Assembly: GCA_031291905.1 (NCBI GenBank)
Contig: JARLIC010000137.1
Location: 1 to 51,761 of the forward strand
DNA length: 51,761 nucleotides
Source: Minisyncoccota bacterium
GTDB lineage: Bacteria; Patescibacteriota; Minisyncoccia; UBA6257; 2-01-FULL-56-20
Direction of reading: 5' to 3'
Under the pieces are notes generated by a model. The model saw nothing but the letters and a program-made list of their open reading frames with translations. It ran no database searches and was not told where the DNA came from. The stretch's first letter is position 1; every line of letters starts with the position of its first letter. A program made the translations under genes and the position numbers. Below, in pieces: positions 24,360-41,759 of the stretch.

Positions 24360-24653
24360 ATGACAAAGAAAACCCGAGAAACTATCCTCGCGGCGGCTAA
24401 CTTGATTCGGCAAGGCTGGGCGCAAAAAGTGGGCCACAAATACGTGGACGGCAAACACTACTATTGCATGCTTGCAGCATTGGCTAAATTTGAGCCTCCG
24501 CACGATTTCAGTGCGGCATTTGAAGTCAGTAAATACCTGAACGGCCGTGGGCACTGCGGAATCACAGCTTACAACGACGCTCCGGGTCGCACACAAGCCG
24601 AAGTGATTGCTTTACTCGAAGCCGTGGCTAATCAAATGGGAGACGAATCGTGA
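24360..24653 (+). CDS. DUF6197-like protein (family B)
   Basis: YNDAPGRTQAEVIALLEAVANQ. Confidence 0.65.
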   Translation: MTKKTRETILAAANLIRQGWAQKVGHKYVDGKHYYCMLAALAKFEPPHDFSAAFEVSKYLNGRGHCGITAYNDAPGRTQAEVIALLEAVANQMGDES

Positions 24654-24976
24654 CGCACGAAACCCGAGAGGTGTCGCTGCGAGCCCGCGATCTGGTGGAT
24701 CAGGGGTGGTGTAAAAATGATTACAAGGTCGAGATTGCCGGATCTTGGCGCTACTGCGTCGTTGCGGCGATCCATACCGCCGACGATCGAAGTTGTACGC
24801 ACACCAATGAAATCGTGCGTCTTGCATGCAAGCACCTGTCGATTCCGGTTAGCCCGACGTCTCTAGGTTCTTGGAACGACCGTCCATACCGCACCCAAGC
24901 CGAGGTGGTCGCCCTACTCGAAGCCGTCGCCAGCCAGTCCGATCCGTTGGCAGGTTGGCGTGAAATCGAAGTCTGA
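24650..24976 (+). CDS. DUF6197-like protein (family B)
   Basis: WNDRPYRTQAEVVALLEAVASQ; adjacent paralog. Confidence 0.65.
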   Translation: MTHETREVSLRARDLVDQGWCKNDYKVEIAGSWRYCVVAAIHTADDRSCTHTNEIVRLACKHLSIPVSPTSLGSWNDRPYRTQAEVVALLEAVASQSDPLAGWREIEV

Positions 24977-25266: not shown

Positions 25267-25295
25267 TTGCAAACATGCAAGCGATTTGCTAAACT
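25267..25295 (+). promoter_or_regulatory. Promoter of ncRNA candidate
   Basis: TTGCAA, exactly 17 nt, TAAACT; inverted repeat CTTGCAAACATGCAAG. Confidence 0.55.
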
Positions 25296-25301
25296 ACAAA
25301 A

Positions 25302-25744
25302 TAGGGAAAGAAGAGGTCTGTTCGACGTTCCGGGTTTCGGCCCGGCGGTGCTCCGGGGCTCCTGTCAGTAGGCCCGGTGATTCCTCCTAAGCTCGTAAGG
25401 GCCACGAGGACGGGCATCAGGTTAAAACCTCCCTGAGTGATGCTAGGCCGTGCAAAGGGGCGGCCGAATCAGGCTAGCGAAACCAGCTTTCCCGCAATCG
25501 CGGGTTTTCCGGGCAACGGGCAGGTAATCGATCCTGCAATGGGCCAGACGTCCCGGTCTAAATGTGATGAGCAAGAAAAAAAAGCCGGAAGCGAAGTTAG
25601 CCCGAAGCATCTGAAAGAGCCAGCAGACGTCGAACACCGGGATGGGCAAAAGACCCTAGATCACTAGGGATTGGCCCTTTCCACGCCTTGAGCTAGACAG
25701 AATGACGCAGGGCAGGGGGTGGGCTTAGGCTCATCCCTTTTTTT
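25302..25744 (+). ncRNA. Large structured ncRNA candidate (about 440 nt)
   Basis: Promoter at 5' end, terminator at 3' end; closing helix 25319-25329/25626-25636; internal hairpins CTCGT/ACGAG, GGCCG/CGGCC, CCCGC-aatc-GCGGG, GCAGG/CCTGC, CCCTAG-atca-CTAGGG. Confidence 0.6.
25716..25744 (+). terminator. Terminator
   Basis: GGTGGGC-TTAG-GCTCATCC (one bulge, one GU) then T7. Confidence 0.7.
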
Positions 25745-25786
25745 GTTGGTATTCGGCTCGACTCAGGATTCCGCAAACGGCAATGG

Positions 25787-25881: not shown

Positions 25882-26121
25882 ATGATCGCAAACAGCAAGA
25901 TGAAAGCGAATTACTACGGCAAATGGGCTGCGGCCCGCAAGGCTTACGCCGAGATCATCAAGCACATCGAAGCCGGAGGACGAGTCGCTATCGCGTCGTA
26001 CACGAAGCCGCGAGTTCTTTCGGACGCCAGGTGGTTCAAGTGCGGTCGCGATGGGGTTTACATCGCACGCGGGAAGAACTGGGATTACCTGTTCGCTGAA
26101 GCGATTCGGCTTGTCGACTGA
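25882..26121 (+). CDS. Hypothetical protein
   Basis: First ORF after promoter. Confidence 0.65.
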   Translation: MIANSKMKANYYGKWAAARKAYAEIIKHIEAGGRVAIASYTKPRVLSDARWFKCGRDGVYIARGKNWDYLFAEAIRLVD

Positions 26122-41380: not shown

Positions 41381-41580
41381 GGATTCGGTTTCTCCGTTGC
41401 CATGAGATTGCCGCAAGGAATACACACTACGACCCCGGCGATGAGAACCCCATGATTCCGAGGCTTCCCACGCGACACGATGACGATCTTTCCGACCGCA
41501 TCGTGATACGGCATGTACTTGGCGCGGGAGGCTCGGTATCGGACGCGGCATGGTTGATTAAGACGCGGGTTGGCCATCAT
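41377..41580 (-). CDS. Small hypothetical protein
   Basis: Overlaps csrA end and helicase start. Confidence 0.55.
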   Translation of the reverse strand: MMANPRLNQPCRVRYRASRAKYMPYHDAVGKIVIVSRGKPRNHGVLIAGVVVCIPCGNLMATEKPNP

Positions 41581-41759
41581 TCCAGAGTCCTCCTCGCCGC
41601 CTTCTTCGCCTCATGCAACTCTTCGCGATCCACGACGACAGCCCTGTCGGCCTGGACGCCCAGCCTGACGACGCCCTTCTTGATCTCGACCACCGTCACG
41701 ATGATGCGACCCCCGTCGATGACGATGGCTTCGTTTTCATGTCGGCTGAGAACTAACAC
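41577..41759 (-). CDS. csrA: Carbon storage regulator CsrA
   Basis: MLVLSRHENEAIVIDGGRIIVTVVEIKKGVVRLGVQADRAVVVDREEL. Confidence 0.9.
   Translation of the reverse strand: MLVLSRHENEAIVIDGGRIIVTVVEIKKGVVRLGVQADRAVVVDREELHEAKKAARRTLE

Follow-up and report, generated by a model that had tools for sequence, protein, structure and literature searches.

A predicted pseudoknotted RNA of about 440 nt in a phage contig, apparently the first recognised member of an undescribed family of structured RNAs

The window analysed here is the whole stretch of 51,761 nt (positions 1-51761, G000:C76), which was assigned to a 0.95-Mb Patescibacteria-like bin whose relatives lack the sequence. The contig is a temperate phage, with genes for a DnaB-like helicase, a RecE-like exonuclease, an integrase, a clamp loader and a SNF2-type helicase, and it encodes a CsrA at 41580-41759 on the minus strand. 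The RNA studied here sits inside a 618-nt gap between gene calls. Just upstream, at 24360-24976 on the plus strand, two DUF6197 proteins of unknown function are encoded in tandem. ARAGORN reported no tRNA and no tmRNA in the window.

An earlier note had proposed a structured non-coding RNA here, with its own promoter and terminator, no convincing reading frame and a long-range closing helix, and had recognised in it the signatures of no known class. All features that it named were recovered in place in the window sequence (Table 1). The terminator is sound: no other site near the RNA looks as much like a terminator as the stem at 25714-25739 with its seven T residues. The absence of a convincing ORF also held up, since by codon-usage scoring the top internal reading frame reached 4.5, compared with 10-50 for most neighbouring genes. 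The promoter fared less well. Its two boxes and their spacing are present and plausible, but with 8 of 12 consensus matches the site falls below the threshold of our promoter scan (9/12) and went unreported there; 3 of 30 shuffles of the region score as well, and the promoter remains unproven. The folding energy of the window RNA as a single sequence is modest (z = -2.46). For L235, the full-length relative described below, z is only -0.51, so this measure is uninformative for the family.

Table 1. Positions of the predicted RNA and its elements in the window
Feature	Positions	Strand	Remarks
Possible sigma-70-like promoter, TTGCAA-N17-TAAACT	25267-25295	+	TTGCAA 25267-25272, 17-nt spacer, TAAACT 25290-25295; 8/12 consensus; unproven
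Predicted non-coding RNA	25300-25744	+	bounded by promoter-like site and T7 terminator; most of its length aligns with L235
P1 (closing helix) 5' strand, TGTTCGACGTT	25319-25329	+	partner 25626-25636
5' domain	25330-25436	+	common to the window and full-length relative L235
P2 5' strand, GATGCT	25439-25444	+	pairs with 25606-25611
P3a 5' strand, GGCTA	25472-25476	+	followed by conserved GCGAAA internal-loop strand
P3b 5' strand, CCAGCTT	25483-25489	+	pairs with 25582-25588, one mismatch
Local hairpin before P4, CCCGC-AATC-GCGGG	25491-25504	+	read from the sequence
P4 helix	25509-25556	+	25509-25513 and ACG 25516-25518 with 25549-25556
P5 hairpin, GCAGG-UAAUCGAU-CCUGC	25520-25537	+	loop conserved, UANUYGAU
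X strand, AATGGGCCAG	25538-25547	+	pairs with X'
P7 5' strand, GTGAT	25564-25568	+	pairs with 25660-25664
P3b' and P3a' strands	25582-25602	+	3' side of P3
P2 3' strand, AGCATC	25606-25611	+	pairs with 25439-25444
P1 (closing helix) 3' strand, GACGTCGAACA	25626-25636	+	partner 25319-25329
P7 3' strand, ATCAC	25660-25664	+	pairs with 25564-25568
Invariant GGA motif (GGGA)	25667-25670	+	joins P7' to X'; GGA in 52/52 members
X' strand, TTGGCCCTTT	25671-25680	+	pairs with X
Intrinsic terminator	25714-25746	+	11-pair stem 25714-25739, then T7

Relatives of the RNA were searched for with the window sequence alone as the starting point, and the chain of homologs is not circular. With blastn, the window RNA matched sequences in a set of 399 Planctomycetota genomes, which had been reached through related phage proteins; the matches centred on 25505-25565, with a best E value of 6.4e-12. 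A common motif, GGGCAGGTANTYGATCCTGC, was then found in 48 IMG/VR contigs, and its relaxed form in 78. Nearly all motif matches have CAACG, the P5 hairpin and ACGUC in that order, and the 78 uncultivated viral contigs are mostly true members, with a few false matches in coding sequence.

Other searches were empty. The window RNA gave nothing meaningful by blastn against 50,697 phage and 72,556 plasmid records, and other family members had no matches in these records either. Three scans of viral contigs that used neighbouring proteins found no relatives. A motif taken from the 3' end of the RNA, a part that lacks conservation, also found none. A covariance model of the core (R1) matched in 5 of the 399 Planctomycetota genomes, in none of 246 genomes from the phylum of G047 (titled Pedosphaera) and in none of 249 from that of G049 (titled Luteibacter); among 245 Patescibacteria only the window's own bin matched. 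No positive control was present in the empty R1 searches, and the filters are stricter in large searches. A 25-nt match in G043 (C227) was rejected as an unrelated locus with no homology outside the 25 nt, and the matches behind L162 and L164 were judged to be chance.

The composite alignment of the core and its 3' strand holds 52 distinct members. P4 (8 bp) and P5 (5 bp) are 100% paired in all of them, with compensatory changes at three pairs of P4 and up to four pair types at one position of P5; together they form a fully paired 13-bp core. The long-range pseudoknot X/X' shows covariation at all 8 family pairs. Overall we counted 178 double-change cells, compared with 56 ± 7 after shuffling, and none of 500 shuffles reached the observed value. 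The covariation score was 0.401 compared with 0.111, and slid controls were all at or below 0.10.

X' was located by its complementarity to X, and the control search was therefore repeated with the X strands of other members. Members scored 9.97 with their own partner and 4.82 ± 0.28 with X strands of other members. The window pair taken alone has a p of about 0.003, with a shuffled X equalling it in 0.3% of trials. The same kind of comparison supports P7 (18.2 against 13.5 ± 0.4 for mismatched partners) and P3 (21.0 against 18.06 ± 0.39). P7 mostly starts 4-7 nt past P4' and mostly ends 0-2 nt before GGA, and the internal loop of P3 is conserved, with GAAA on one strand and a UAAG-like sequence opposite. 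A member found later and kept out of all models, L255, fits this scheme: it has X as AUGCGGCAG and X' as CUGCCGCA after GGGGA, and its P7 is GUGAU/AUCAC. Four members (L161, L163, L202 and L183) have a hairpin of different sequence at the place of the local hairpin before P4.

In the predicted topology both P7 and X are crossed by P3, and X in addition crosses P4, which makes the core multiply pseudoknotted. The window RNA carries every element of the family. These pseudoknots were absent from the earlier account, in which the closing helix would bound a domain of at least six local hairpins. By the comparative evidence the defining feature is not this helix but the pseudoknotted core of P3, P4, P5, P7 and X. 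The functional domain runs on beyond the helix to about 25680, P7' and X' lie 3' of it, and some hairpins of the single-sequence fold (e.g. CCCTAGATCACTAGGG) clash with the conserved P7.

The closing helix itself is present as described. P1 (TGTTCGACGTT/GACGTCGAACA) has ten Watson-Crick pairs and one G-U pair. Runs of at least 10 bp spanning at least 250 nt occur in 9 of 343 windows of 450 nt from the contig, so P1 taken alone is only suggestive. It gains support from the relative L235, which is homologous to the window RNA over nearly its full length (67% identity, 406 aligned positions) and in which U25328-A25627 becomes A-U, one compensatory change. We regard P1 as probably real on this comparison. 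In P2 the pair U25441-A25609 becomes C-G in L235. Five pairs of the 5' domain also covary between the two sequences (25333/25342, 25351/25358, 25382/25410, 25384/25408 and 25385/25407). A joint fold of the two with RNAalifold gave 13 pairs in which both sides had changed and 10 with a consistent change on one side, and it left every aligned pair intact; RNAalifold picks the pairs itself, so this last result is partly by construction. The evidence for P1 and P2 comes mainly from these two sequences, and the 5' domain rests on few sequences, because a motif built on it retrieved L235 only. In the window, the loop AAGGGCC (25398-25404, in the hairpin 25393-25409) is perfectly complementary to GGCCCTT of X' (25671-25680), a possible alternative pairing that is not conserved in L235.

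Covariation among homologs, which the earlier note had named as a check, is strong in the core, and for the closing helix it depends on one full-length relative. The candidate is confirmed beyond chance, and the decisive evidence, all of it from sequence, is comparative. The proposal of a structured non-coding RNA of about 440 nt outside the recognised classes is borne out by this covariation together with the lack of an Rfam match. With cmscan against Rfam 15, no gathering-level match was found in the window, nor on the RNA at 18 related loci, and permissive scans gave stray sub-threshold matches only. One of these, to SorY, reached 27 bits compared with a gathering score of 111 and lay on the 3' hairpins and terminator; we rejected it as chance. 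A description of the family was not found in the open literature, a search that did not cover subscription papers and most preprints. The window RNA is apparently the first recognised member of a structured RNA family that has not been described.

The family distribution and the csrA genes both bear on the host. Five RNA-bearing planctomycete genomes have 10-13 csrA copies, compared with 0-2 in three others, and of 40 relatives of the Patescibacteria-like bin that were searched, only one has csrA. Because the RNA family and csrA both point to planctomycetes, we consider the contig to be a planctomycete phage that was probably mis-binned. Most carriers of the family are phages, whose hosts are probably Planctomycetota, and a few are planctomycete chromosomes.

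No constant gene accompanies the RNA. In phages its neighbours vary among helicase, portal, terminase, HNH, RusA and methyltransferase genes, with tRNAs once; on chromosomes they are Type I restriction genes, a ParB-like gene or integrases. A constant neighbouring gene family was sought across the loci and not found. Nor is there a consistent downstream gene family, as would be the trait of a riboswitch or another gene-specific cis regulator. Neighbours that are unrelated between members argue against a cis element specific to one gene. An association of the family with tRNAs was considered and rejected, since tRNA genes lie near the RNA at 1 of 47 loci.

Several single loci are worth recording. 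In two chromosomes (G208 and G394; L260 4122-10371 and L261 5854-9290) HsdR genes of Type I restriction are neighbours of the RNA, and one of the two loci also has a D12 methyltransferase; a link to defence islands is possible. In L212 a DUF3800-IX RNA (Rfam RF02968; 1939-2002, plus strand) and the new RNA are encoded on opposite strands about 250 nt apart, and two tRNA genes follow the new RNA. A tight group of members, clade A (L170-L216, e.g. L174 3321-3597), has an extra 5' motif, AGCGCUG...UUCUCG...CAGCGCU...CGAG, that resembles another pseudoknot. In this clade the RNA is placed between a helicase plus a small gene and a conserved MAKDLVLL protein.

The ends of the RNA differ among members. 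Among the 52 members, only the window copy has an intrinsic terminator no more than about 250 nt from X'; the terminator is a peculiarity of this member and not a trait of the family. Most of the other 51 are probably cotranscribed with the genes downstream. Of the 37 members outside clade A, 22 have the start codon of an ORF of at least 60 codons no more than 80 nt from X', as do 14 of the 15 in the clade, compared with 26% of random positions; the short gaps between co-directional genes in phages would give this proximity as well. Promoter-like sites upstream of members have a mean best score of 7.66, compared with 7.22 in shuffled sequence and 7.09 in random windows. No common reading frame is preferred among members across X' and the 3' end.

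From these results we favour, with somewhat better than even confidence and without transcript data, a stand-alone, untranslated phage RNA, some 440 nt long and part of a new family, that acts on a host machine. At the level of sequence comparison, the conserved fold, the absence of coding and the lack of a constant neighbour are established; the transcript, the compact particle and the action in trans are inferred, and the partner molecule is unknown. The RNA would be transcribed during infection. In the core, as the comparison shows, P4 bears the hairpin P5, and X, between P5 and P4', is captured by the distal 3' strand X' that follows GGA. P7 closes the loop immediately before GGA, with P3 crossing both P7 and X, and in the window and L235 the outer 5' domain and closing helix enclose this core. 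The RNA is inferred to fold to a single compact particle and to work as a free molecule. Its invariant CAACG, UANUYGAU, ACGUC and GGA would most likely dock on a host machine, for which the ribosome, RNA polymerase or a host RNA-binding protein are candidates. Its action would then be in trans, as for other ornate phage RNAs, without coding for protein or regulating one particular neighbouring gene. The covariation, the window copy's own terminator, the absence of an ORF and the unrelated neighbours count for this reading, and the missing terminators and the frequent nearby start codons count against it.

The latter two observations are what would be expected of the main rival, a cis-acting 5' leader (an attenuator, a put-like antiterminator or a riboswitch) acting on the transcription or translation of the gene or genes that follow. 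The upstream promoter-like sites, which are somewhat enriched, fit it as well. In the window a terminator separates the RNA from the next gene, and this terminator, 37 nt after X', could serve as an expression platform for the gene at 25882. However, the downstream genes have no common function, about 15 of the 37 members outside clade A have no nearby start codon, we recognised no alternative pairing in the window that would form an antiterminator, and X' does not overlap the ribosome-binding site. We consider a leader unlikely, though it has to be kept in mind. Less probable still is a ribozyme, in which the P3/P7 pseudoknot and P4-P5 would form a catalytic core, topologically reminiscent of group I introns, and act on itself or on another RNA by cutting or ligation. 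The clustering of invariant unpaired residues in a multiply pseudoknotted core suggests it, as does a helix order shared with group I cores (P3-P4-P5-P4'-P7-P3'-P7'). It is opposed by the absence of any Rfam intron match, of P6 and of a conserved guanosine-binding P7, by the extra X/X' helix, and by the lack of an interrupted reading frame or of a common frame across the 3' end.

Little credence can be given to a decoy that captures host or phage CsrA with its invariant GGA and exposed core. GGA is part of ANGGA in 42 of 52 members, csrA is abundant in the RNA-bearing planctomycete genomes, and the window phage has its own copy. CsrA sponges of the CsrB/RsmZ type carry many GGA motifs in hairpin loops. 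The whole window RNA, however, has only five GGA, two of them in ANGGA, the invariant GGA lies between two helices and not in a hairpin loop, and csrA is near the RNA at only 2 of 88 loci. That the region holds no functional RNA, being a chance structure or the remnant of a protein-coding gene, is the least credible reading: the folding energy is modest and transcript data are absent, but extensive compensatory change across 52 members contradicts it and there is no coding signal.

To our knowledge, the large structured RNAs described from phages are few and all lack a settled function, and the phages of Planctomycetota have hardly been studied. Here evolution has conserved an intricate knotted shape, of unknown function, among dozens of phages from the environment and in a few planctomycete genomes; neither Rfam nor the databases of cultured phages had revealed the family. 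It points to an RNA-based step in Planctomycetota infection, and its compact, strongly covarying core is a defined target for structural and biochemical work. More tentatively, and with real doubt, the family may be a new functional class of RNA spread through planctomycete phages, for example a ribozyme or a direct reprogrammer of host RNA polymerase or ribosomes, with a core unlike characterised folds.

Compared with known RNAs, the family shares with group I introns the order of helices and the crossing of P3 and P7, a likeness of topology only. It differs from them in lacking P6 and a conserved P7 sequence, in its additional X/X' pseudoknot, in interrupting no host gene and in having no Rfam match. 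We rejected the idea that GGG-AUG at X' belongs to an IRES or an intron, because the position after GGA (UA, GU, AU or CG) follows the pairing with X and no frame is favoured across members. The conserved regions CR-I to CR-V and the long-range P4 of RNase P RNA were not found in the window RNA. The words GAAAUCCGGGC and UUGAGCUAGACAGAAUGAC are superficially similar and coincidental: no RNase P model matched even at an E value of 10, the CCGGG/CCCGG pairing is local in the window RNA, and the topology differs. A tRNA-like domain with a tag ORF, as in tmRNA, was not found in the window or the related loci, and the Rfam covariance model of OLE matched neither. The put RNAs of HK022 and EAR are RNA antiterminators, structured leaders that act on RNA polymerase and for which the downstream gene is nearly irrelevant; they are much smaller than the new RNA and different in structure.

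The nearest precedents in kind are ROOL and GOLLD, large, pseudoknot-rich RNAs of phages and prophages whose function is unknown (PMC12286853). Profiles of both exist in Rfam (PMC12286853) and give no match to the window RNA, which is neither of the two; the earlier note had named them as precedents but could not assign the RNA to them. The new RNA, at about 440 nt, is shorter than a ROOL example of 659 nt and the many GOLLD RNAs above 800 nt. ROOL and GOLLD are located near tRNA islands, whereas the window has no tRNA and tRNAs are rare at the family loci. Large phage RNAs of unknown function have precedents as a category; as an RNA class, with its distinct conserved core, the family appears to be new.
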